Shown one piece after another: positions 7,818 through 16,656 of a stretch of DNA of 22,403 nt (the first letter of the stretch is position 1; every line of letters starts with the position of its first letter). This DNA comes from a virus. The notes under the pieces were generated by a model that saw only the letters and a program-made list of their open reading frames with translations, ran no database searches and was not told the origin of the DNA. The DNA lies in the IMG/VR virus record IMGVR_UViG_3300010160_000250, positions 1-22,403 of that record. The stretch is one strand, 5' to 3'. The position numbers and the translations under genes are program-made.

Positions 7818-8074
7818 ATTACGTTCCTCATTTCTTCAAAATAAATAGGTGCGTCCTGCTCAATCCGAAAAATCACATCCGGATGCAAAACCCCGCTCAA
7901 GTCAACAGAACTGTTAGGCAAGAACACCGAAACAAGAGTCCACACCTCCGGATAGTCAGGCTCCAATTTCATCCCAGACATGGGCTCAACAGAGCCAACT
8001 TCAGCCGGCTCATACTCAAACAAACATTTGAGCGCTAAACCCAACTCGTCACATTCGTAAAGAAACTCGTGCAT
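7814..8074 (-). CDS. Small acidic protein of unknown function
   Basis: 86 residues from the ATG at 8074, which lies two bases after the stop of the upstream gene. The longer frame back to 8137 would read deep into that gene and has no better ribosome site. The protein is acidic and looks like a mixed alpha/beta fold: MHEFLYECDELGLALKCLFE, a hydrophilic turn, then VWTLVSVFLPNSSVDLSGVL and DVIFRIEQDAPIYFEEM. No motif is recognised. It ends in an ATGA overlap with the next gene. Confidence 0.68.
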   Translation of the reverse strand: MHEFLYECDELGLALKCLFEYEPAEVGSVEPMSGMKLEPDYPEVWTLVSVFLPNSSVDLSGVLHPDVIFRIEQDAPIYFEEMRNVI

Positions 8075-8076
8075 AT

Positions 8077-8322
8077 TTACCCCATCAAAGTTATTAAAAG
8101 AATTGCCAAGATTGCAGAACCAAGGATCACGGGCCACGCAGGGGCCGGACGATACATCGAGCCCGTACCCAACAAAACCGATTGAATGATTTCTTCCGAG
8201 GAAGTCATCTCAGGAGGCGGGGGTTGGTACAACAAACCAATCTGCACCTTCCCCGTGTTAAATGGCGTCAAGCACTGATTCGTGCGCCTAACAGGCACGT
8301 AATTGTCCGCATTAATGATCAT
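8077..8322 (-). CDS. Proline-rich protein with a C-terminal membrane anchor
   Basis: 81 residues. The first 60 are polar and contain a QPPPPE run and a PAPAWP hinge; the last 19, starting WPVILGSAILAILLITLMG, form one hydrophobic helix that ends at the C-terminus. This predicts a tail-anchored inner-membrane protein with its N-terminus in the cytoplasm, or the opposite if exported; there is no signal peptide or lipobox. A run of G lies 8-12 nt before the ATG, and the start overlaps the preceding gene by 11 nt. It does not match holins or spanins, and it is not next to a lysis gene. Function unknown. Confidence 0.68.
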   Translation of the reverse strand: MIINADNYVPVRRTNQCLTPFNTGKVQIGLLYQPPPPEMTSSEEIIQSVLLGTGSMYRPAPAWPVILGSAILAILLITLMG

Positions 8323-8560
8323 AAGATGCCCCCATGTCCTTCTTGGCCTTCATCGCATCGCTGTATGCGTGCTCAAAGCCCTCCAAGAACTTCTCCAAGG
8401 GCACACTTAATTCTGCAGTCAAGATGGCTGCAGAAACAAGGCTCGCGAACCACGCGTCAGCAGGTTTGACAAAAGTAGTTGCGCAAAAGTTAAGCAAAAT
8501 CTGCGCATCGTCCATGATTTGTTCAATGTCTTTATCCGTAGTATCCGTGTTTTTAACCAT
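8312..8560 (-). CDS. First gene of the leftward operon, unknown function
   Basis: 82 residues. An acidic N-terminus (TDTTDKDIEQIMDDAQ) is followed by a mostly helical body with an alanine- and leucine-rich stretch (ADAWFASLVSAAILTAELSV) that is too polar to be a clear membrane span. No family is recognised. The ribosome box AGAAAGGATAG (8575-8565) sits 4 nt before the ATG and is the same box used by the cassette genes at 10.4-14.5 kb. The operon promoter lies 60-90 nt upstream. As the first gene it should be the most strongly expressed member of the group. Confidence 0.72.
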   Translation of the reverse strand: MVKNTDTTDKDIEQIMDDAQILLNFCATTFVKPADAWFASLVSAAILTAELSVPLEKFLEGFEHAYSDAMKAKKDMGASYDH

Positions 8561-8589
8561 ATCACTATCCTTTCTTTGTTACAGTGGTT

Positions 8590-8614
8590 TGTCCACCTTT
8601 TATCTAAGTGGACA
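8590..8614 (-). promoter_or_regulatory. 5' leader hairpin of the leftward operon
   Basis: Inverted repeat TGTCCAC - 11 nt - GTGGACA (7-bp perfect arms, extendable by two inner pairs). It begins 5 nt after the -10 box on the minus strand, so it would form at the very 5' end of the transcript. The same placement is seen in the leaders at 12102, 13749 and 14402, with different arm sequences. It may protect the mRNA 5' end or act as an operator. Confidence 0.65.
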
Positions 8615-8619
8615 GGGTT

Positions 8620-8648
8620 ATTATCATGCTTTTATCTAGTTAGGTCAA
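8620..8648 (-). promoter_or_regulatory. Sigma70-like promoter of the leftward small-gene operon
   Basis: On the minus strand, -35 TTGACC (8648-8643), a 17-nt spacer and -10 GATAAT (8625-8620). Both boxes are near consensus and the spacing is ideal. It would direct transcription of the eleven genes from 8560 down to 5985. No other promoter of this quality was seen inside the operon. Confidence 0.75.
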
Positions 8649-9055
8649 TTACTTGGAATGTACTATTTCCTAGGGGTTTTCCCTTGGTTTGGGGGTTTTA
8701 GTGTGATGCATTATTGTACTGGGTGGATGTACAGTGTGTTTTGGTGGATGGGTGGGGGACCGCGGACCGAGGGTCAAAAGGGGTGAAAATAGGCCAAAAA
8801 GTAATACTAAGGTTTAGGTGCTATAGACCTTTTAGGGGTAAGAGGTGTTTTTTTTTTTATTTTTGTGAGATTTGACGTAATAGACGTAATGCCGTAAGAA
8901 GTGAGAGAAATCAATACGTTACGAGCATTCGGCAAATTACGTCTGGAGATTCAGTGTAATATTTCTAGGGGGGCTCCGCGAGATGAAAAGTAAAAAAATA
9001 AAAACACACTACACCCTCCAAAAGTTCTATAGGGAGCCCTGATTGCTTTTGTTGG
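8649..9055. other. Noncoding divergent control region, candidate origin
   Basis: About 400 nt with no convincing gene on either strand, between the leftward operon promoter and the rightward promoter at 9056. It holds a G-rich stretch (8731-8770), an 11-T tract followed by a second T run (8848-8864), the GACGTAAT repeats (8874-8944), and a distant GGGCTCC / GGAGCCC pair near 8975 and 9035. AT-rich DNA beside short iterated repeats resembles replication origins, but no initiator gene lies next to it. A switch region binding a phage regulator is the main alternative. Confidence 0.45.
8874..8944. repeat. GACGTAAT short repeats (iteron- or operator-like)
   Basis: GACGTAAT occurs at 8874-8881 and 8883-8890, followed by the degenerate GCCGTAA at 8891-8897, a 9-nt period. 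An inverted copy ATTACGTCT lies at 8936-8944 and matches AGACGTAAT (8882-8890) perfectly over 9 bases. Between them is TACGTTACG. The cluster lies directly beside the T tracts at 8848-8864. Confidence 0.55.
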
Positions 9056-9084
9056 TTGACTCTGGGGGCGACACTCGTTATACT
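9056..9084 (+). promoter_or_regulatory. Strong sigma70-like promoter of the terS operon
   Basis: TTGACT (9056-9061), 17-nt spacer, TATACT (9079-9084). It lies 25 nt before the first ATG. Transcription should run through the DUF7303-like gene, terS and the VRR-NUC-like gene. Unlike the cassette leaders it has no hairpin and no AGAAAGGATAG box; translation uses GGGAG. Confidence 0.78.
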
Positions 9085-9109
9085 CGTGGTAGTTCTTTTA
9101 CGGGAGTTA

Positions 9110-9328
9110 ATGATGGTACATATTGATCAGGGAATAGCCCTGCCAACCAATCGATCCAAATATCCTTTTGGGGAAATGGAGGCGGGAGACAGCATTCTGT
9201 TTGGCGTGCGCAAGCAGGCTGAAAGCTGCAGAGTGGCTGCCCTTCGCTTCACACGTGTGCATCAGCCTAAATGGGTGTTCACGCTGCGCAAGGTGGACAA
9301 TGGTTGGCGTTTGTGGAGAATCAGCTAA
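9110..9328 (+). CDS. Small DUF7303-like phage protein
   Basis: 72 residues. The ATG at 9110 is chosen because it follows a CGGGAG ribosome site; a second ATG comes directly after it. A longer frame begins at the TTG of the -35 box and cannot be the start. The pattern PTNRSKYPFGEMEAGDSILF, followed by SCRVAALRFTR and later DNGWRLWRIS, is that of small phage proteins with a YPF-x-x-M-x-x-GDS motif and a C-terminal WRI (DUF7303-like; assigned from memory). Their role is not known; the sequence suggests a small beta-rich fold. The stop shares its last A with the terS ATG (TAATG), so the two are translationally coupled. Confidence 0.72.
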   Translation: MMVHIDQGIALPTNRSKYPFGEMEAGDSILFGVRKQAESCRVAALRFTRVHQPKWVFTLRKVDNGWRLWRIS

Positions 9329-9996
9329 TGGCCAAGAAAGACGTTTGGAATGTTCCCCCTGTCATGCCTGACAAGGCACAGAAACGAATGTCTACTGAGG
9401 TGGCCCCGCTGCGGCAGCAGCGCAGGAAGCTAACAGCCAAGGAATGGACCTTTGTCACTGAGCTTGTGAGTGGTGACGGACGGGTGACCATGAAAGAGGC
9501 AGCCATAAGGGCCGGATACAAGTCCACCAGCGCTTCTGTGATGGCATGGAAGCTGACAAACCCTGATATCAATCCCCATGTGGTCTCGGCTATTCAGGCC
9601 TATCGTGCTGACTTGGCATCCAAGTACAACACGTCCTATGAGCGTCATATGCGGGATTTGCAGATCATTCGAGACAAAGCTTTGGATGCCGGTGCATTTG
9701 CTGCAGCCGTCCAAGCAGAGTATCGTAGGGGCCAAGCCTTGGGAACGATCTATGTGGAGCGTAAAGAGATCCGCCACGGCACGATTGACAGCATGAGCAA
9801 GGAAGAGGTGCAGCGTAAGCTTGACGAGCTTAAAAAGCTGTATGGTGGGCCTCCACCTACTGCCTTGATCGATGCGGACACAGGAGTGGTGATTGAAAGT
9901 GCAGCAAGAGAAAAAGATCCTGAATTTGACGCAGGAGTGGAGCAGCCTCCACCGGATATCTTTGAACGAGATTTGGGGGGATCAGATGACACCTGA
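9328..9996 (+). CDS. terS: Terminase small subunit
   Basis: 222 residues. Residues 33-80 (RKLTAKEWTFVTELVSGDGR, then VTMKEAAIRAGYKS and VMAWKLTNPDIN) are the N-terminal helix-turn-helix of Terminase_2-type small subunits: the opening LT-x-KE and AA-x-RAGY are typical. This part recognises the packaging start site on phage DNA. The middle (85-170) is helical and would form the oligomeric ring, and a proline-rich acidic tail (PPPTALID, EQPPPDIFERDLGG) may touch the large subunit. The start at 9328 overlaps the preceding stop. It overlaps the nuclease gene at its end by 11 nt. Unusually, the large subunit lies 5.2 kb downstream. Confidence 0.85.
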   Translation: MAKKDVWNVPPVMPDKAQKRMSTEVAPLRQQRRKLTAKEWTFVTELVSGDGRVTMKEAAIRAGYKSTSASVMAWKLTNPDINPHVVSAIQAYRADLASKYNTSYERHMRDLQIIRDKALDAGAFAAAVQAEYRRGQALGTIYVERKEIRHGTIDSMSKEEVQRKLDELKKLYGGPPPTALIDADTGVVIESAAREKDPEFDAGVEQPPPDIFERDLGGSDDT

Positions 9997-10390
9997 AGCT
10001 AGATTTTCGGCTAGGGTAAAAGCCGGCCTTCTCAACTGCAGCATTGAGCGCATTGAGAATCGTGTAAATCTTGGCATCCCTGATATGTTGGTGGGTATCG
10101 GGGATCGCTTTGTTTTGCTTGAGTTGAAAGTGGTTGCTAAGGGGTTAAAAGTTGGGCTGCGTCCCCATCAAATCGCTTTCATGACTCGGCATGCTGCTAA
10201 GGATAGGCCTTGCTTTGTGCTTGTCCTTGATATGGGTAATACACTACGCCCTTCAACCATTCGTTTGTATCAGGGGAGCGATGCTATGAGATTGGCTGCA
10301 GAGGGCATAAAACTTGAGCCGCTGCGGTGTTGGCCTTCAAGGGGGATGCCATGGGCAGAACTAGAGGAAACCCTAGGTTTAGTAAAATAA
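9986..10390 (+). CDS. VRR-NUC-like PD-(D/E)xK nuclease
   Basis: 134 residues from the ATG at 9986 inside the end of terS. The catalytic pattern is visible: ENRVNLGIPDMLVGIGDRFV contains G-I-P-D33, followed by LLELK with Glu46 and Lys48, i.e. PD-x(n)-E-x-K. GLRPHQIAFMTRHA (57-70) and PCFVLVLD (75-82) are the conserved second half, with the helix and strand of VRR-NUC domains. Members cleave branched or structured DNA in phages and in the eukaryotic FAN1 protein. Likely role: resolving replication intermediates before packaging, given its overlap with terS. No ribosome site stands out, so coupling with terS is likely. Confidence 0.85.
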   Translation: MTPEARFSARVKAGLLNCSIERIENRVNLGIPDMLVGIGDRFVLLELKVVAKGLKVGLRPHQIAFMTRHAAKDRPCFVLVLDMGNTLRPSTIRLYQGSDAMRLAAEGIKLEPLRCWPSRGMPWAELEETLGLVK

Positions 10391-10403
10391 ATGTAAAAAA
10401 GTG

Positions 10404-10443
10404 TTGCAAGGTACAAAAACCTTGCTATACTGGCGATGCCGGT
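10404..10443 (+). promoter_or_regulatory. Promoter with an operator-like dyad between -35 and -10
   Basis: TTGCAA (10404-10409), 16-nt spacer, extended -10 TGCTATACT (box 10426-10431). The spacer region holds a perfect dyad GCAAGGT-acaaaa-ACCTTGC (10406-10425), which a repressor dimer could bind. A second dyad ACTGGC-gat-GCCGGT (10429-10443) overlaps the -10 and start region, and its arms are identical to those of the leader hairpin at 12102-12120. Regulation by a phage or host repressor is inferred. Confidence 0.7.
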
Positions 10444-10473
10444 GCTTGATCCGGTTCCTTAGAAAGAATAGAG

Positions 10474-10644
10474 ATGAAAACATACAAAGTGATTGCAGCA
10501 AGTACAAGCTATGTCTATTGCTTGGTCCAAGCAGAAGACGAGCAGCAAGCATGGGATAAGGCACGCGAAATCGATGGTGGTGATTTTGAAGACGCGGGCT
10601 ATGGCAGTTGGGGTATTGACACCGTTGAAGAGGTGACAAAATGA
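10474..10644 (+). CDS. 56-residue DpnD/PcfM-like small protein
   Basis: Starts MKTYKVIAASTSYVYCLVQA and continues EDEQQAWDKAREIDGGDFED. The plan of a strand (YKVIAA), a second strand ending in A-E-(D/S), a helix with EQQAWDKA and a final GDF-x-D...W-x-ID strand resembles DpnD/PcfM-like proteins, which have no firm function. The ribosome box AGAAAGAATAG (10461-10471) ends 2 nt before the ATG. The stop overlaps the next ATG (ATGA). It is the first gene of the accessory cassette behind its own promoter. Confidence 0.72.
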   Translation: MKTYKVIAASTSYVYCLVQAEDEQQAWDKAREIDGGDFEDAGYGSWGIDTVEEVTK

Positions 10645-11021
10645 AAAAGTTGACCATTGAACAACGGGCTTTTTTAGAGGCATACGACAATGCCGTTGCC
10701 AGTGCCCCTCGCGAAGAGGTGGTTCGCTTTTTGACTGTGACTTCTGAAGAGCGTAGCAGCCGCGCTTTTTATGATTCTATGTCGGATATTTACACGTCAA
10801 TTTTTGATGCATGGGAGGTTTGGAATCAGGCGCTTAAATTTGCTCGCGCTGATAAGGGTATGACAGTTGGCAAATTGTCGGCTGCGCTCGCTAATTTGCC
10901 GCAAGATTTGCCCATCGTGATTTGGGATGCCGGCACCCGTTTAGGGCTTGCCCATATTGACGATAGCTTTATAGAAGACGAATACCCGCGCCTTGAGTTG
11001 AACACCGACCGCGACGATTAA
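10641..11021 (+). CDS. Protein of unknown function with a small C-terminal phage domain
   Basis: 126 residues in two parts. The N-terminal 75 are helical (KKLTIEQRAFLEAYDNAVAS, then SDIYTSIFDAWEVWNQALKF). The C-terminal part MTVGKLSAALANLPQDLPIV, then IWDAGTRLGLAHIDDSFIED, follows a pattern common in small phage proteins: a T-V-x-x-L helix, a PxDxPV turn and strand, and a strand pair. No activity is known for that pattern. The gene starts within the stop of the DpnD/PcfM-like gene (ATGA), so the two form a pair. It ends acidic (NTDRDD). Confidence 0.75.
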   Translation: MKKLTIEQRAFLEAYDNAVASAPREEVVRFLTVTSEERSSRAFYDSMSDIYTSIFDAWEVWNQALKFARADKGMTVGKLSAALANLPQDLPIVIWDAGTRLGLAHIDDSFIEDEYPRLELNTDRDD

Positions 11022-11038
11022 CCCAGAAAGGATAGAAA

Positions 11039-11284
11039 ATGCCAATTTACAAATACGATGTGTGCTTTCCCAATTCTCAAAGTGTGATTCGCACCTTCCC
11101 TTCGCTTGTTCGCGCTCGTGACTTTATGCGCGTTATGTCGGCCGATGATTTGCCCTTTTTGGTTATGCCATGGGACGAAAACAGCAGCCCCTTAATTGTG
11201 CGACGCGTGAAAACCCCTAGAAAATATCATACACAAAAGGCCGTTAAAGTTGATATACTAGGCCCCTCACAACAGAAAGGATAG
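11039..11284 (+). CDS. Small basic protein of unknown function
   Basis: 81 residues. The ribosome box AGAAAGGATAG (11025-11035) ends 3 nt before the ATG; no separate promoter is seen, so it probably shares the 10404 transcript. MPIYKYDVCFPNSQSVIRTF, followed by SLVRARDFMRVMSADDLPFL, suggests a small alpha/beta fold like the product of 10474. The tail (KTPRKYHTQKAVKVDILG) is basic. No family is recognised. The end overlaps the putative -10 box of the next leader. Confidence 0.68.
   Translation: MPIYKYDVCFPNSQSVIRTFPSLVRARDFMRVMSADDLPFLVMPWDENSSPLIVRRVKTPRKYHTQKAVKVDILGPSQQKG
11254..11259 (+). promoter_or_regulatory. Possible extended -10 promoter before the GP88-like gene
   Basis: TGATATACT has the extended -10 form TGnTATACT and sits 30 nt before the ATG at 11289, inside the end of the previous gene. 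No good -35 box lies at the expected distance, and no hairpin follows, so it is weaker evidence than for the other leaders. The box AGAAAGGATAG follows at 11274-11284. Confidence 0.4.
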
Positions 11285-11288
11285 AGAA

Positions 11289-11993
11289 ATGTTAAAAACA
11301 GTACGTATTAGCGCGAACAGCAAAACCGGCCCAATAGCAGTTACTTATCGCAGCGGCGAACATGAAACCTATGGCACGTGCCCGACAAGCTGCAGCCTTC
11401 ACCCGAAAAGTGAAACCGGCACGACACAAATAGACAGCGAATATTTACAAGCTGTTTTTGATAGCGTCCCGCGCGGTGGTCAAGCTTGGACTTATTCACA
11501 CTTTGCAGCCGAAGCGCTCCCGCTGCCTCAACCAAATAAAACAGTTATAAATGCAAGCTGCGACAATGTGGCCGATGCTGTGCGAGCTGTAGAACTTGGC
11601 CGGCCTGCTGTATATGCTGCCCCCTTAGAATCGGCCGACCAATGGCCACAAAAAATTCACGGCGTGCAATTTGCCCGATGCCCTGCAGAATTGGCCGAAA
11701 ATTTTAGCTGCCAACAGTGTGGTGGTGGCCGGCCATTGTGCGCACGTGGTGCCCGCGAATTTGTGGTGGTTTTTGTTGCGCATGGCACCGGAAAAAAGAA
11801 AGTAGGAACCGACGCGGCCGGCGGCTGCTATGCTGCCAGTGGACCGACGGCGATACAGTGGCACAACACCAGAAAAAACGGCGCGAAAAACGATGCTGCA
11901 GCGCTTCGCGAATTCGTGCGGACTCTCCCGCATGGCTCTTTTTTGCGCCACCATATCGCGGGTGATTGTGGGCGGGAATTGGGGGCCCCTTGA
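11289..11993 (+). CDS. Cysteine-rich GP88/DUF7227-like phage protein
   Basis: 234 residues. It opens with ISANSKTGPIAVTY, then GTCPTSCSLHP (Cys31, Cys35), later RCPAELAENFSCQQCGGGRP and LCARG (Cys131, 141, 144, 151), and GGCYAASGP (Cys180). The order NSK-TG, CPxxC, a CxxC cluster and G-x-CYA is that of a phage family I recall as GP88- or DUF7227-like; the assignment is from memory. The cysteines could hold zinc or an iron-sulfur cluster. The end LPHGSFLRHHIAGDCGRELG looks like the conserved R-x-H-x-x-GD motif, and the protein then stops quickly, so the C-terminus may be shorter than in relatives. Function unknown. The ribosome box AGAAAGGATAG lies 4 nt before the ATG. Confidence 0.72.
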   Translation: MLKTVRISANSKTGPIAVTYRSGEHETYGTCPTSCSLHPKSETGTTQIDSEYLQAVFDSVPRGGQAWTYSHFAAEALPLPQPNKTVINASCDNVADAVRAVELGRPAVYAAPLESADQWPQKIHGVQFARCPAELAENFSCQQCGGGRPLCARGAREFVVVFVAHGTGKKKVGTDAAGGCYAASGPTAIQWHNTRKNGAKNDAAALREFVRTLPHGSFLRHHIAGDCGRELGAP

Positions 11994-12055
11994 TATTCGT
12001 AATAATTGTGATTTTTTGGGCGCTTTGGTGGCTTATTGATCAATTTGAAAAATAA
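11990..12055 (+). CDS. Possible membrane microprotein overlapping the preceding gene
   Basis: A frame read from TTG 11990 encodes 21 residues, LIFVIIVIFWALWWLIDQFE plus K (Met at the start codon), which is one membrane span. It overlaps the stop of the GP88-like gene by 4 nt. The ribosome site is a run of G only 4-9 nt upstream, and the start codon is weak. The hydrophobic content is striking but could be chance in AT-rich DNA. Confidence 0.22.
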   Translation: MIFVIIVIFWALWWLIDQFEK

Positions 12056-12089
12056 ATGTAAATAAAACGTGCAAAGTGTAAAAAGTATG

Positions 12090-12120
12090 TATAATTCAAG
12101 CACTGGCATAAATAGCCGGT
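12090..12120 (+). promoter_or_regulatory. -10 box and leader hairpin of the DUF932 gene
   Basis: TATAAT (12090-12095), with a poor -35 (GTGCAA about 15 nt upstream). The hairpin ACTGGC-ataaata-GCCGGT (12102-12120; one G-T pair) follows 6 nt later and would lie at the mRNA 5' end, then TTTTTA. Upstream sequence (AAATAAATGTAAA, then TGCAA) matches the region before the 10404 promoter, so the two are related. The T run after the stem makes an attenuator possible. Confidence 0.6.
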
Positions 12121-12147
12121 TTTTATCAACTTAGAAAGGATAGCGTA

Positions 12148-13104
12148 ATGGCTCACATGATCGACACAACAACAGGCACTGCAGCAATAGCTTATTCAGG
12201 CTTAGCCCCTTGGCATAAACTAGGGCAGCAATTGACAGCGGGCGCGACAATTCAAGAATGGACACAACAGGCCGGCCTTGCTTATGACGTATTAGAAAGC
12301 CCCGTATTATTTAATACACCGGCCACCAGTGCCCCTCAAGCATGGCCTGATCGCAAGGTTTTGCACCGGAGCGATACGGGCGCGCCCTTGGCTGTAGTTT
12401 CACAGGGTTATAACGTGGTGCAACCCTCTGAGGTTATGGGGTTTTTTAGTAAGTTGGTAGACCTTGGCGGGTTTACCATGGAAACCGCGGGCGCTCTCAG
12501 TTACGGCCGGAGGGTTTGGGCTCTGGCAAAAGTAAGCGAAGGGGCCGATATTGTCGAGGGCGATACAGTGCGCCCTTATGTTTTGCTTGGCACGTCATAC
12601 GATGGGACAATGGCCACCATCGCAAAATTTACCAGTGTGCGCGTGGTATGCAATAACACAATCACGGCAGCAGTGAATAATAGTGAATCTCAAATCAGGG
12701 TTTTGCATTCTGAGCGTTTTAATGCGGACGATGTCCGGCTGCAGCTTGGAATTGTGGCCAACCAGTGGGAGCGCTTTCTAGTGCAATCCCGCAAATTGGC
12801 GGGCGAAAAAATGACAAGCGAAGAGGCCGATTCATTCGTGACCGAATTATTGAAGCCCTATCACACTGGCAAAATTGAAATTAAAGATAGTCGCGCATTC
12901 AAGCGAATTATTGAATTATTCAACGGGCGCGCTATTGGTTCCGATATTGTGGGCGTGGCCGGCACGCGATGGGCCGCATTAAATGCTGTCACTGAATTAG
13001 TCGATCATGAGCGCGGCCGCTCTGACAATACCCGCATTGAATCGGCTTGGTTTGGAACCGGTGCGGCATTGAAAAATAGAGCGTTAGAACTGCTATCGGC
13101 TTAA
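12148..13104 (+). CDS. DUF932 (phage/plasmid-like, TIGR03299) protein
   Basis: 318 residues, full length for the family. The signature is clear: a start with IAYSGLAPWHKLGQQL, then VVSQGYNVVQPSEVMGFF, GALSYGRRVWALAKV, and the middle motif LLGTSYDGTMATIAKFTSVR followed by VVCNNTITAA, ending in a helical region with AWFGTGAALKNRALELL. DUF932 proteins are widespread in phages and plasmids, often near DNA metabolism genes; the activity is not established. The ribosome box AGAAAGGATAG (12133-12143) is 4 nt before the ATG. It is the largest gene in the accessory cassette and is followed by a terminator 175 nt later, so it is probably a one-gene transcript. Confidence 0.9.
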   Translation: MAHMIDTTTGTAAIAYSGLAPWHKLGQQLTAGATIQEWTQQAGLAYDVLESPVLFNTPATSAPQAWPDRKVLHRSDTGAPLAVVSQGYNVVQPSEVMGFFSKLVDLGGFTMETAGALSYGRRVWALAKVSEGADIVEGDTVRPYVLLGTSYDGTMATIAKFTSVRVVCNNTITAAVNNSESQIRVLHSERFNADDVRLQLGIVANQWERFLVQSRKLAGEKMTSEEADSFVTELLKPYHTGKIEIKDSRAFKRIIELFNGRAIGSDIVGVAGTRWAALNAVTELVDHERGRSDNTRIESAWFGTGAALKNRALELLSA

Positions 13105-13279
13105 CCATGGAATGGGAGGGGCGATATTATACCCCTTCCCCCTCTGAAAGGTTATGCAAAAAACGCATAAAGTGGCCGGTAAAGTAAACCCTATAAACTA
13201 GGCCCTCGGCCCCTGACGCTTGCCACTGTCAACGTGAGCCGTGGCCCTTGGGCCTTGCTCCATGGGCCGTGGCCCATGG
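13105..13279. other. Noncoding hairpin-rich region after the DUF932 gene
   Basis: No gene was found. It contains TTATGC-aaaaaac-GCATAA (13152-13170), a bulged GGGAGGGG/CCCCTTCCC stem around a TATTATA loop (13114-13140), GGCCC-tt-GGGCC, and a 9-bp dyad CCATGGGCC-gt-GGCCCATGG (13260-13279) that touches the terminator stem. The stacked GC-rich dyads may strengthen termination or form a processing site. Confidence 0.5.
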
Positions 13280-13309
13280 CCCGCGCGCCGTTAGGCGCGC
13301 GGGTTTTTT
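13280..13309 (+). terminator. Rho-independent terminator
   Basis: Perfect 10-bp GC stem CCCGCGCGCC-gtta-GGCGCGCGGG (13280-13303) followed by six T. It ends transcription from the DUF932 gene and isolates the next promoter at 13400. Confidence 0.88.
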
Positions 13310-13350
13310 CTCTGCAGCCGGTTTTGTTTTCCTGAATTTTTTCCCTGATT

Positions 13351-13378
13351 TGGTGGTGGCGGGGGTGGGTGGGCCCGC
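13351..13378 (+). repeat. 28-bp G-rich direct repeat, copy 1
   Basis: Identical over 28 bases to 14961-14988. It starts TGGTGGTGGCGGGGG and ends GGGCCCGC. Both copies are preceded by TTCCCT and lie in noncoding DNA downstream of a terminator. The G runs could form a two-layer quadruplex. Confidence 0.85.
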
Positions 13379-13399
13379 TAATTTTTTTTGTTTTTGTTG

Positions 13400-13428
13400 T
13401 TGCGGGATTGCTGGCGCGGTGTTATACT
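13400..13428 (+). promoter_or_regulatory. Sigma70-like promoter of the 13455 gene
   Basis: TTGCGG (13400-13405), 17-nt spacer, extended -10 TGTTATACT (box 13423-13428). It lies 26 nt before the ATG. No hairpin fits between the -10 and the ribosome box AGAAAGGATAG (13441-13451), unlike the two leaders that follow. Confidence 0.7.
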
Positions 13429-13454
13429 GTGGTCTCATTTAGAAAGGATAGAGA

Positions 13455-13712
13455 ATGAGTTACTTTGAAATTGACTATTTGCGCAAACCTAGCCGGCCCC
13501 AGTTAGTTGCTGCTATTCGCAAGGGTTTGATTGCCGGCAATGATCTGCTGCACCTGACTTGGGGAGAGAATCGAATCGAGGTCCGCGTTACCCAGTACGG
13601 GGTTATTGGTTCGGGATGGATAGGCCGCAATGGCGGGAATGATCTTGTTAAAGCACTAAACCCCACCCGCGTACCACTGGACCGAGGAGGCATGATATTT
13701 ATTAATAAATAG
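13455..13712 (+). CDS. Small basic protein of unknown function
   Basis: 85 residues. MSYFEIDYLRKPSRPQLVAA, then IRKGLIAGNDLLHLTWGENR and IEVRVTQYGVIGSGWIGRNG: a short helix followed by an apparent beta-hairpin (IEVRVTQYG / VIGSGWIG), with several glycines and basic residues. No family is recognised. It has its own promoter and ribosome box AGAAAGGATAG 3 nt before the ATG. The next leader's -10 box starts 24 nt after the stop, with no terminator between, so read-through into the acidic repeat gene is possible. Confidence 0.72.
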   Translation: MSYFEIDYLRKPSRPQLVAAIRKGLIAGNDLLHLTWGENRIEVRVTQYGVIGSGWIGRNGGNDLVKALNPTRVPLDRGGMIFINK

Positions 13713-13735
13713 CAGTAACTAACGTAAAACAGTGC

Positions 13736-13766
13736 TATAATTCAACTGTCTAATCGGCCGATTAGA
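13736..13766 (+). promoter_or_regulatory. Extended -10 promoter and leader palindrome of the acidic repeat gene
   Basis: TGCTATAAT (box 13736-13741) without a clear -35. Seven bases later comes an 18-bp perfect palindrome, TCTAATCGG followed by CCGATTAGA (13749-13766), which starts about at the expected +1. It is followed by TACAACCCTAGAAAGAAGAG, shared with the leader at 14402. RNA could fold it as a 7-bp stem with a GGCC loop. Confidence 0.7.
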
Positions 13767-13794
13767 TACAACCCTAGAAAGAAGAGAGAACGCA

Positions 13795-14385
13795 ATGACA
13801 AACCCAGTCACCCCTTTCCGTAATAACCTGTTTGGTTCACGTCCCACAATCCAAGAAGCTTTGGATTATGCGGAGATCATGATCAATAACTTGAGCGCCC
13901 CTGATCAAGTGGCAATCCGGACGGCCTTTGGTGTTTTGATAAACACCATCGACAACAAGGTGACCAACACTCCCGAAAGAATTGCAGTAGTTCAACTGAT
14001 CAGTTCCATTATTAATGAGCAATTAAATGTCACGATGAATGACGTGGATGAACAAGTCAGCAACTGGATGGACAGTCACTTGTATGACCGGCTTGACGCG
14101 CACAAGGTTGTTCGCGAAGATGCCATCGGTGACGTTGTGGATGCCCACATCCACAATCTGGATGACAAGATTGAAGATTGGATGAAGCACAACCTGCGCG
14201 ACAAGGTCATGGACATTGTGGCCGACGACGACGTGGATGACCAGATCAGCAACTGGATGTCAAACAACTTTGACATTGAAGAATACAACGTGGGGGATGC
14301 AATAGAATCTTGGGCCGATAGGAACCTAGAAGACAAGATCCAAGAAACAATAAATAATTTAACTTTTAGCGTAACAGTAAGTTAA
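13795..14385 (+). CDS. Acidic tandem-repeat protein of unknown function
   Basis: 196 residues. The C-terminal half has five related units: VDEQVSNWMDSHL (84-96), IGDVVDAHIHNL (111-122), LDDKIEDWMKHNL (122-134), VDDQISNWMSNNF (147-159) and VGDAIESWADRNL (166-178). The common plan is D-x-(V/I)-x-x-W-(M/A)-x-x-(N/H)-L, with W91, W129, W154 and W173; the second unit has His118 there. Residues 81-196 hold about 30 Asp/Glu and only 9 Lys/Arg. The N-terminus (PTIQEALDYAEIMINNLSAP) is a separate helical part. At DNA level 14041-14070 and 14230-14259 match at 27 of 30 bases, so the repeats arose by duplication. The function is unknown; acid-rich proteins can mimic DNA or bind basic partners, a guess only. 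Confidence 0.8.
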   Translation: MTNPVTPFRNNLFGSRPTIQEALDYAEIMINNLSAPDQVAIRTAFGVLINTIDNKVTNTPERIAVVQLISSIINEQLNVTMNDVDEQVSNWMDSHLYDRLDAHKVVREDAIGDVVDAHIHNLDDKIEDWMKHNLRDKVMDIVADDDVDDQISNWMSNNFDIEEYNVGDAIESWADRNLEDKIQETINNLTFSVTVS

Positions 14386-14392
14386 ACTGGTG

Positions 14393-14427
14393 TATAATCC
14401 ATGTACTGGATCAGCCGATCCAGTACA
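14393..14427 (+). promoter_or_regulatory. -10 box and leader hairpin of the 14458 gene
   Basis: TATAAT (14393-14398), no convincing -35. The hairpin TGTACTGGATC-agcc-GATCCAGTACA (14402-14427) has 11-bp perfect arms and a 4-nt loop and begins 3 nt after the -10. The following text CCCTAGAAAGAAGAGAG equals that of the 13749 leader. The stem arms differ from those of that leader, yet pairing is preserved. Confidence 0.72.
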
Positions 14428-14457
14428 ACTTAAACCCTAGAAAGAAGAGAGCAAATC

Positions 14458-14769
14458 ATGACTAAAGTAATTACCATTGACAGTAACCGCTATGTGTTAC
14501 CAACTGAAATGTCCAACAAGGACATTCAATCACTGGCCGGTTTCCTGATCACTCTAACCAAAGTGGATTATGAGTGGATGTATGGCCAAGAAGAAAGCTT
14601 GTATTTCGCGAACGAAGGTGCAAAGGTCAGCATAGACCAGTTTGAAATGGTCAGCAAAGAGGAAGCAAAGACCAGAGCGAACAAGGCCCGTGATGTTTAT
14701 CAGGCCAAGAAAGACGCAGAAGAAAGAGCCAAGGCCGGTGACCTAGTCGGCCTACACGTCAACCAGTAA
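14458..14769 (+). CDS. Last gene of the cassette, unknown function
   Basis: 103 residues. The N-terminus MTKVITIDSNRYVLPTEMSN looks like two strands and a turn, followed by a helix (KDIQSLAGFLITLTKVDYEW), a strand segment (SLYFANEGAKVSIDQFEMVS) and a long lysine/glutamate-rich helix (KEEAKTRANKARDVYQAKKD). No family is recognised. The ribosome box AGAAAGAAGAG (14439-14449) lies 8 nt before the ATG. The gene is followed after 8 nt by a 26-bp palindrome and then a terminator, which closes the cassette. Confidence 0.75.
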   Translation: MTKVITIDSNRYVLPTEMSNKDIQSLAGFLITLTKVDYEWMYGQEESLYFANEGAKVSIDQFEMVSKEEAKTRANKARDVYQAKKDAEERAKAGDLVGLHVNQ

Positions 14770-14777
14770 GCGCTGGT

Positions 14778-14803
14778 CTAGGGTGTATGTACATACACCC
14801 TAG
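14778..14803. repeat. 26-bp perfect palindrome
   Basis: The half CTAGGGTGTATGT is followed directly by its reverse complement. As RNA it gives an 11-bp stem with a GUAC loop. It sits 8 nt after the stop of the last cassette gene and 14 nt before the terminator. It could be a protein-binding site or an RNA processing hairpin. Confidence 0.85.
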
Positions 14804-14817
14804 GAATCACAAACACG

Positions 14818-14843
14818 AAGGCAGCCGACTGGCTGCCTTTTTT
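14818..14843 (+). terminator. Rho-independent terminator closing the cassette
   Basis: AAGGCAGCC-gact-GGCTGCCTT (14818-14839), with the T run 14838-14843. Seven GC-rich core pairs and an adjacent U tract are classical. It separates the accessory genes from the large terminase transcript. Confidence 0.88.
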
Positions 14844-14852
14844 ACTGGCCAG

Positions 14853-14876
14853 TACTCTACCCTACTGGGTAGAGTA
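14853..14876. repeat. Inverted repeat with 10-bp perfect arms
   Basis: TACTCTACCC-tact-GGGTAGAGTA. It lies 9 nt after the terminator T run and has no T run of its own. Confidence 0.8.
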
Positions 14877-14878
14877 TC

Positions 14879-14898
14879 ACAGGGCCCATGGGCCCTGT
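14879..14898. repeat. 20-bp perfect palindrome
   Basis: ACAGGGCCCA followed by TGGGCCCTGT. It starts two bases after the previous inverted repeat. Three perfect dyads plus a terminator stem within about 120 nt is far more than expected by chance. Confidence 0.8.
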
Positions 14899-15133
14899 AG
14901 CCTTACCATGCCATGCTTACGCGCCGCTTACACTTTCCCTTTTTTATTATTCTTCCCTCATGGTGGTGGCGGGGGTGGGTGGGCCCGCGTGTACCTCTTG
15001 TCTACGTATAGGGGTTACATCCTTTAGAGGGGGAGGGCCATAATCAGCCCAGTTAGCTCAGGCCAAACCTTCGCCCAGTTTTAGCCAAATTTAGAACCTT
15101 TTTAAACTTGGTCCCCGGAAAAGACCCCCCTTG
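14899..15133. other. Noncoding region upstream of the large terminase gene
   Basis: No gene was found in about 235 nt. It contains the second copy of the 28-bp G-rich repeat (14961-14988), G-rich GAGGGGGAGGG (15028-15038) and C-rich stretches near 15115 and 15125. A packaging signal (cos or pac) is possible, given terL next door, but nothing in the sequence proves it. Confidence 0.4.
14961..14988 (+). repeat. 28-bp G-rich direct repeat, copy 2
   Basis: Identical over 28 bases to 13351-13378. Flanks diverge apart from the preceding TTCCCT. It lies 117 nt after the cassette terminator, as copy 1 lies 41 nt after the DUF932 terminator. Confidence 0.85.
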
Positions 15134-15162
15134 TTGTTTTAAATGCAATCAGGGGTTATATT
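15134..15162 (+). promoter_or_regulatory. Possible promoter of the terL operon
   Basis: TTGTTT (15134-15139), 17-nt spacer, TATATT (15157-15162). Expected start near 15169, 18 nt before the terL ATG. The boxes are imperfect, but it is the only fit between the upstream terminator and terL. Confidence 0.42.
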
Positions 15163-15186
15163 TATGCAAATTTCAAAACGTGGCCT

Positions 15187-16656
15187 ATGCACTCTATAAA
15201 ACCTGATGACGTCCAAGAAGAACAGCTTCGCTTGGAGTTGCGACTCAAACTCTTGGAGGCTCAGGAGCGTGCAACAACAGACTTCCTGTCCTTCTGCCAG
15301 TACGTCTGGCCCGAGATGCTCGTTGGGGAACACCACAAACGAATCGCCAAAGCTCTGGACCGTGTAATAACCGGCGAGTGCAAACGCCTGATGATCGCGA
15401 TGCCTCCCCGTCACGGCAAATCCCAGCTTGGCAGTTATCTGTTCCCAGCATATCTGATGGGTAGAAACCCTGACACCAAACTCATTGTCGGCTCCCACAC
15501 TGCAGAGTTAGCGCAGCGTTTTGGCCGGATGATCCGTAACCTTGTCGATGACGAGAAGTACAAGGAATTATTCCCAAAGATGGCCTTGTCAGTTGACAGT
15601 AAGGCTGCCGGCAGGTGGAACACGGCCCAAGGAGGTGAGGCCTTTTTCATTGGTAAGGGCGGTGCGATGACGGGCCGTGGTGGTAATGTTGTTGTGCTGG
15701 ATGATATTTTGGACGAGCAGGATGCTGTGTCTGAAACTGCGATGGAGAACACGTGGGAGTGGTACACATCCGGTCCTCGTCAGCGTTTGCAACCGGGCGG
15801 CGCGATCATTGTGATTAATACGCGTTGGAAGACAGACGACCTCTCTGGCCGCCTCTTGAAACAACAGGGTTATCTGAAGTCTGACCAGTGGGAGATCTTG
15901 GAATTCCCTGCCATCCTGCCTAGTGGTAAACCCTTGTGGCCTGATTACTGGAGCCTTGATGAGTTAGAAAAGGTCAAGGTCTCTATTGGTTTGAAGAAGT
16001 GGAACGCCCAGTGGCAGCAGCAGCCAACGAATGATGAGGGTGCGATCTTGAAGCGTAACTGGTGGCGCAAGTGGAAGTACGATGATCCACCGGAGTGTGA
16101 GTATCTGATTCAGGTATACGACACGGCGTACTCAAAGAAAGAGACTGCTGACTTCTCTGTCATCAGCACATGGGGCGTGTTTTATCCTGATGCTGATTCT
16201 GGTGCCAATCTGATGCTGCTTAATGTGCGCAAGGGCCGTTGGGATTTTCCTGAGCTTAAGCGCATGGCTAAAGATGAATACATGTATTGGAAGCCTGATA
16301 ATGTTTTGATTGAAGCAAAGGCTACCGGTACGCCGCTCCAGCAGGAACTTCGTAAGATGGGCATCCCTGTCACGATGTTCTCGCCCGGCGGTCGCAAGTC
16401 TGGTCAGGACAAGGTCAGCCGAGCCAATGCTGTTGCTCCCTTACTAGAGTCCGGCATGATCTGGTACCCTGAAGGTAAGGAGTGGGCCGAGGACCTTGTA
16501 GAGGAATGCGCGGCTTTTCCTAATGGGAACAATGACGACCAAGTGGATACTGCGGTGATGGCTTGGACGAGATTTCGTGCTGGCAACTTTATTGCGTTGG
16601 CCTCGGACGACGATACAGAAGACGAGCCTGATACAACACCGGTTGAGTATTATTGA
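15187..16656 (+). CDS. terL: Terminase large subunit
   Basis: 489 residues. The ATPase motor has Walker A PPRHGKS (73-79) and Walker B VVVLDD (168-173), with the coupling segment IIVINTRWKTDDLSGRL (207-223). The C-terminal RNase H-like nuclease has Asp312 (QVYDTAYSKKETADFS), Glu376 (LIEAKATG) and Asp450/451/454 (NNDDQVDT), all present. This fits the PPRHGKS group of phage terminases with Terminase_6C/TIGR01630-type nuclease ends. It cuts and pumps phage DNA into the head through the portal encoded 3.8 kb downstream. The ribosome site is weak. A short out-of-frame reading from the ATG at 15164 (AGGGG site, 11 codons) overlaps the start and might couple translation. The C-terminal tail is acidic. 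Confidence 0.96.
   Translation: MHSIKPDDVQEEQLRLELRLKLLEAQERATTDFLSFCQYVWPEMLVGEHHKRIAKALDRVITGECKRLMIAMPPRHGKSQLGSYLFPAYLMGRNPDTKLIVGSHTAELAQRFGRMIRNLVDDEKYKELFPKMALSVDSKAAGRWNTAQGGEAFFIGKGGAMTGRGGNVVVLDDILDEQDAVSETAMENTWEWYTSGPRQRLQPGGAIIVINTRWKTDDLSGRLLKQQGYLKSDQWEILEFPAILPSGKPLWPDYWSLDELEKVKVSIGLKKWNAQWQQQPTNDEGAILKRNWWRKWKYDDPPECEYLIQVYDTAYSKKETADFSVISTWGVFYPDADSGANLMLLNVRKGRWDFPELKRMAKDEYMYWKPDNVLIEAKATGTPLQQELRKMGIPVTMFSPGGRKSGQDKVSRANAVAPLLESGMIWYPEGKEWAEDLVEECAAFPNGNNDDQVDTAVMAWTRFRAGNFIALASDDDTEDEPDTTPVEYY

Follow-up and report, generated by a model that had tools for sequence, protein, structure and literature searches.

What is selected in the leaders of a set of small viral genes, when one short motif precedes every start codon and stem-loops of ever different letters precede many of them? 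The question arises from the IMG/VR contig IMGVR_UViG_3300010160_000250 (positions 1 to 22,403; this whole 22.4-kilobase (kb) stretch is called the window), which encodes a family A DNA polymerase, primase-like and helicase-like proteins, and a small and a large terminase. An earlier note proposed from the letters that one leader design is reused here by at least eight genes. The design proved to be shared in part. All eight genes (8560, 10474, 11039, 11289, 12148, 13455, 13795 and 14458, each named by its start position) carry the box AGAAAGRAKAG, seven have a promoter with a sigma-70-like -10 element and five have a hairpin, whereas two have short leaders without a hairpin and gene 11039 has the box only.

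The leaders were compared in relatives, mostly from IMG/VR, that were fetched with two window proteins and one pattern (219 sequences, that is 218 loci plus the window) and in a larger pool of 346 sequences. Because the box itself served as the pattern in one of the pool searches, some members of the pool were selected for having it, though not for its position before a start codon. The transcription start (+1) was predicted as the seventh nucleotide (nt) after the -10 element. For one alignment, 41 leaders from genes of the 14458 and 13795 types were restricted by hand to a common 34-nt geometry, which inflates the alignment's proportion of paired cells (92.3%) and leaves the G.U test described below unaffected. 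In this alignment all eight of the eight stem pairs have changed on both sides in a compensatory way, the covariation score is 0.683 (0.251 when shuffled and at most 0.113 when slid), and RNAalifold recovers the same stem unprompted. Among non-Watson-Crick pairs within stems, scored alike, there are 12 G.U to 2 A.C when only the most distinct leaders are used (p 0.006) and 18 to 2 after lighter deduplication (p 2e-4); the decision to count predicted transcribed bases alone followed a first count, and these p values are to be read accordingly. That first count, which allowed two mismatches and stems extending past +1, gave 24 against 22 and no asymmetry, a result that we think reflects the counting of C.A cells outside the predicted transcript. 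Since G.U is tolerated and A.C is not, the asymmetry is one of strand and points to RNA structure rather than a DNA operator. Covariation, G.U tolerance and a stem start fixed at the predicted +1 together argue that the hairpins are RNA structures, with RNA structure rather than a single DNA operator as the main target of selection, as the earlier note had held. What is selected appears to be the shape of the hairpin, with its letters free, and it probably acts as a shield at the RNA end.

The position of the hairpins is as constant as their letters are variable. A hairpin whose stem starts at predicted +1 to +3 is present in 97 of 179 distinct leaders. Hairpins of at least six consecutive pairs occur in 83 of 139 distinct leaders, compared with 10 in shuffles, and 51 of those 83 have their outermost pair 7-8 nt downstream of the -10 element. 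Where an exact TATAAT is combined with the box, 59 of 65 leaders have a hairpin and in 46 the stem starts at 6-8 nt; the corresponding figures for TATAAT without the box are 38/133 and 16/133, and a looser -10 without the box is followed by a hairpin starting at 6-8 nt in 55 of 2314 cases. The structured TATAAT leaders counted as lacking the box mostly have a variant of it, for instance ATAGAGGATAGAG. Stem lengths and letters differ greatly among cassettes, and the hairpins of orthologous genes stand at corresponding places with unrelated letters, which bears out the earlier claim that the arms differ while position is kept. Relatives also keep the pairing, the loss of which would have told against the earlier proposal. 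Leader families with a good -10 fall into two classes: where the -10-to-box distance is at most 18 nt none of 11 has a significant hairpin, and where it is 26-45 nt 40 of 65 do. The unpaired stretch before the box is alike in both classes (about 5-9 nt past the stem, or 6-9 nt from the predicted +1), which makes the hairpin look like an extra module placed in front of a short leader that is otherwise constant.

The box itself is strictly placed. Within the window the exact pattern has eight copies, each 2-8 nt upstream of an ATG and all at the genes that had been named, and the reversed control pattern has no match across the 22.4 kb. In the 219 sequences, 559 of 575 distinct boxes sit 2-14 nt before an open reading frame of at least 35 codons, while the reversed pattern gives one match in total; in the 346-sequence pool a start codon follows 625 of 629 distinct boxes. 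Because its AGAAAGGA pairs with the 16S 3' tail UCCUUUCU, of which it is the exact complement, at normal spacing before starts, the box is by this pairing an extended Shine-Dalgarno site. The tail was taken from genomes of the genus Rhodoferax, whose 16S ends in CCTCCTTTCT; the Rhodoferax metagenome-assembled genome (MAG) discussed below itself gave no 16S end. The box differs from an extended Shine-Dalgarno site in that its flank KAG(AG) is also conserved, beyond what 16S pairing needs, and in being mainly confined to one gene class. Ten contigs of 37-63 kb contain 72 boxes by our own count, and 62 of these fall within about 7 kb, from just upstream of the small terminase gene to the large terminase gene. 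The box is not equally common elsewhere; had it been, this would have told against the earlier proposal. One isolated boxed gene well outside the block, examined as an outlier in three of the long genomes (G001:47183, G002:31923 and G006:12039; L224-L226), encodes a conserved protein of about 115 amino acids (aa) containing VYVVQEMPNHDIA; its leader is short and no hairpin was seen in it.

Phage DSL-LC04 (OR003939, L001), the sole nucleotide relative among GenBank phage records, lacks the box and keeps a +1 hairpin before its DUF932 gene. Its accessory genes (OR003939 13353-15891) have a common ribosome-site context of their own, ACATACAGGAGAAA and variants, some with +1 hairpins. Because the DUF932 hairpin is present there with a different ribosome-site context, the comparison suggests that the hairpin architecture is older than the box.

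The genes behind these leaders change while the leaders recur. The DUF932 gene and the 13795 orthologue are present together at 57 loci, where the slot that they flank holds more than 20 unrelated boxed protein families. One leader family, of the 13455 type, precedes 12 protein families, and the 10474 type precedes 9. Both findings support the earlier proposal of accessory genes exchanged as promoter-leader-gene units. A 27-base-pair (bp) G-rich sequence, GGTGGTGGCGGGGGTGGGTGGGCCCGC, follows a pyrimidine tract at window positions 13352-13378 and 14962-14988 and is found in 164 of 349 loci, letter-perfect even in distant relatives. It is oriented with the large terminase gene; one window copy ends about 200 nt upstream of that gene and the other precedes the swapped gene. 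It may be a packaging or replication site as well as a recombination target.

How might such an arrangement work? In Escherichia coli the ompA and papA mRNAs have stabilising stem-loops at their 5' ends, in leaders of single host genes. The leaders described here resemble them in the primacy of structure over sequence and, if the predicted +1 is right, in having the hairpin at the mRNA 5' end (stem at +1 to +3) and upstream of the ribosome site; they differ in that one architecture is found on several genes per genome and across a phage clade, with stabilisation argued by analogy. We regard it as probable, though well short of secure, that these are exchangeable host-transcribed cassettes, each with a sequence-independent 5'-terminal hairpin that blocks 5'-end-dependent decay and a strong ribosome site. 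The region between the terminase genes, together with one divergent gene, would be a set of small exchangeable gene cassettes, a typical one having its own host-type sigma-70 promoter, a leader and the extended Shine-Dalgarno box. In most, the first paired base of the hairpin would be predicted mRNA base 1, and about 5-9 unpaired bases would separate the hairpin from the box; the remainder would lack a hairpin and have the box about 6-9 bases from the predicted 5' end. Judging by the sigma-70-like elements, host RNA polymerase would transcribe each cassette, presumably beginning at the predicted base. The hairpin would then bar RppH and RNase E from the 5' end and lengthen mRNA life, as in ompA and papA, and might also keep the ribosome site open whichever gene follows; the box would recruit ribosomes. 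Homologous recombination at recurring leader sequences could exchange the genes. As the hairpin requires no particular sequence, the leaders of one genome could drift apart, and unwanted recombination between them might be reduced as a result.

The enzymology offers precedent, as RppH and RNase E require single-stranded 5' ends, 5' secondary structure stabilises mRNA, and a 5' hairpin appended to bla mRNA stabilises it (PMC3997798). Several points, together with the first G.U count and the hand-restricted alignment, nevertheless weigh against this account. RppH acts on only about 10% of E. coli mRNAs (PMC3997798). The +1 is a prediction from the -10 position only, the host is deduced from a single MAG bin, and the leaders are related by descent, so the counts overstate independence. 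Two of the seven promoter-bearing genes, 11289 and 13455, have no hairpin, which shows it not to be essential. The folds of 12148 (z -0.6) and 10474 (z -0.5) are no stronger than dinucleotide shuffles, and the case for these two hairpins rests on relatives because neither beats shuffles alone. The 12148 hairpin with its U-tract also reads as terminator-like, though distant orthologues lack that tract. Protection from decay is argued from analogy, and protein binding or termination may be the role of some copies. Taken as a whole, the earlier interpretation mostly stands, with real RNA structure and real modularity, and a mechanism that we infer.

A regulatory rather than protective role would follow if the hairpins bound a phage or host RNA-binding protein, or served as put-like cis-acting antitermination RNA. 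Their loops do recur strand-specifically among the 83 hairpins (AGCC 16, GGCC 10, CGG 7), the hairpin-to-box distance is fixed and the hairpins are common to a gene class. Loops and arms nonetheless vary widely among the cassettes of one genome and among orthologues, many boxed genes have no hairpin, no conserved unpaired motif was seen apart from the box, and the Rfam 15 covariance models gave no significant match in window positions 8000-15300. HK022 put RNA and lambda nut/boxB are likewise short structured RNAs in phage leaders, whose conserved sequences are recognised by polymerase or by N/Nus proteins; comparable conserved sequence was not seen in the leaders here. We judge a regulatory role of this kind unlikely. 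It is unlikely, too, that the stem-loops are terminators or insulators that stop or trim read-through RNA from the upstream gene, as the PeSLs of T4 reportedly do. The dense promoter/stem-loop cassettes and shuffled genes match the PeSL setting (PMC4503421), 12148 has its U-tract, and many relatives have a second dyad filling the -35/-10 spacer. Most 5' hairpins, however, lack a U-tract, a terminator lying between +1 and +20 would act on the transcript to which it belongs, and the stems begin in fixed register with the promoter start point, which terminators do not need.

The spacer dyad suggests a further possibility. Perfect dyads that take up the whole -35/-10 spacer and abut the -10, with differing arms, occur in 30 of 193 distinct boxed promoters compared with 2.75 in shuffles, and in 41/183 boxed versus 61/1315 box-less promoters; examples are window positions 10406-10425 and relatives L109, L110, L121-L123, L125, L132 and L134. 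In part of the cassettes the spacer dyad and the 5' hairpin could form a two-hairpin boundary element without sequence constraint. Read-through RNA would carry hairpin-UAUAAU-hairpin, and a cut in the AU-rich middle would leave a 3' hairpin on the upstream mRNA and a 5' hairpin on the downstream one. A gene between two such boundaries would be independently transcribed with both ends protected, but we regard this as a quite unlikely arrangement. Operators for dimeric repressors would explain perfect DNA palindromes such as the 13795 dyad, since +1 to +20 is a classic operator position for perfect dyads; arms that differ among promoters of one genome and among orthologues fit no single repressor, and the RNA-strand asymmetry, with G.U tolerated and A.C not, makes operators very improbable. 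That selection acts on the Shine-Dalgarno box alone, with incidental dyads, is hardly credible. The box is indeed in all eight genes and the dyad in five, and 11289 and 13455 manage without one, but the excess of hairpins in TATAAT-box leaders over those without the box and the covariation in the 41-leader alignment speak otherwise.

The leaders amount to an apparent natural library experiment, with many stems at one fixed place, predicted mRNA base 1, the shape kept and the letters free. Such a natural collection would directly test whether 5'-end protection alone suffices for a phage leader. It also illustrates how phages outside the T4 group can exchange accessory genes and keep them expressed, and promoter, +1 hairpin and box could together be a search key for swapped accessory genes in metagenomes, possibly including some that act against host defences.

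The earlier note took the module to be possibly undescribed, which holds only in part. Promoter/stem-loop cassettes, by title promoter-terminator motifs in Arbiol 2010 and Comeau 2014, are reportedly found in T4-type phages under the name PeSL. They are described as mediating gene shuffling between related phages (PMC4503421), so cassettes of this kind that shuffle accessory genes are already known. The PeSL is the closest known system. As in it, a stem-loop stands beside a sigma-70-like promoter, the combination recurs across a region of variable genes, and unrelated genes are exchanged behind the element. The leaders here have further features of their own. They differ in that the U-tract is mostly absent, so that by sequence 12148 alone is terminator-like, and in that the stem lies at the predicted +1 in the leader with freely varying letters and is followed by a lineage-specific ribosome box; the phages, moreover, are not T4-like. 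Since PeSL stem-loops are described as terminators, whereas most of these hairpins have no U-tract and all are tied in position to the start point, membership is not claimed.

In the window, all five hairpin leaders fold with base 1 paired, and each of the four genes for which a dyad after the -10 had been reported (8560, 12148, 13795 and 14458) does have one. Three folds beat dinucleotide shuffles singly. All features below lie on the plus strand except those of gene 8560, and box positions come from pattern matches. The divergent gene 8560 (8312..8560, minus strand; 82 aa, without a family match) has a -35 TTGACC (8643-8648), a -10 GATAAT (8620..8625), a predicted +1 at 8613, a 5'-terminal hairpin at 8591..8613 (z -3.8) and the box AGAAAGGATAG at 8565..8575, 4 nt before its ATG. 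A second helix in this leader (8565-8590) encloses the box and could regulate translation of the gene. The roughly 400 bp between this gene and the small terminase region (8640-9050) contain no convincing gene; a T run is present there.

For gene 10474 (10474..10644; 56 aa, without a family match), one dyad overlapping the place of the hairpins had been described, and two were found. The promoter TTGCAA-16-TATACT (10404..10431) has its spacer filled by the dyad GCAAGGT-acaaaa-ACCTTGC (10406..10425), which abuts the -10, and a short 5'-terminal hairpin, GCCGG/CCGGU (10438..10455; z -0.5 alone), lies at the predicted +1; the box AGAAAGAATAG (10461..10471) ends 2 nt before the ATG. Gene 11039 (11039..11284; 81 aa) has no promoter or -10 and no dyad upstream; its box (11025..11035, gap 3 nt) comes after the stop codon of the preceding gene, and it looks like an operon-like member. 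The DUF7227 gene 11289 (11289..11993; PF23872, E 7e-33) has a -10 TATACT (11254..11259), a predicted +1 at 11266, a short hairpin-less leader and a box at 11274..11284 (gap 4 nt).

The DUF932 gene 12148 (12148..13104; PF06067, E 2e-56) has a -10 TATAAT (12090..12095), a hairpin ACUGGC/GCCGGU followed by a U-tract (12102..12120; z -0.6 alone, re-paired in relatives) and a box at 12133..12143 (gap 4 nt). The U-tract after this hairpin (window 12102-12125) occurs in near relatives only, and this copy might also attenuate transcription. Gene 13455 (13455..13712), which occupies the swapped slot flanked by the DUF932 gene and 13795, has a -10 TATACT (13423..13428), a predicted +1 at 13435, a short hairpin-less leader and a box at 13441..13451 (gap 3 nt). 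Gene 13795 (13795..14385; 196 aa) has a -10 TATAAT (13736..13741) extended by TGC, and its hairpin GUCUAAUC-GGCC-GAUUAGAU (13748..13767; z -2.0) is a perfect DNA palindrome; that of gene 14458 (14458..14769; 103 aa), after a -10 TATAAT (14393..14398), is ACUGGAUC-AGCC-GAUCCAGU (14405..14424; z -3.0). These two share the box AGAAAGAAGAG (13776..13786 and 14439..14449), each 8 nt before its ATG.

The viruses are a family infecting bacteria, from lakes. With relatives' genomes of about 60 kb and a family A DNA polymerase, they are not T4-type phages. The phage group is nearest to DSL-LC04, and the terminase is nearest to those of DSL-LC04 and of the pelagiphages HTVC027P and HTVC023P; the module is not in these two pelagiphages, where other recurring leader motifs are found instead. 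The module is also found, with seven boxes and a large terminase of 87% identity, on one contig of a Rhodoferax MAG bin, and on the weak evidence of that single bin the host is probably Rhodoferax-like. An isolate contig, L202, matched the box pattern and was set aside as it has one box only. Searches of the module proteins with PADLOC, Pfam and PHROG gave no match to a defence system, and DUF7227 and DUF932 were the only confident domains. Elsewhere in the window, the primase-like protein (847-2379) matches the primase domain model of the TOTE conflict system (PF22548, E 2e-12).

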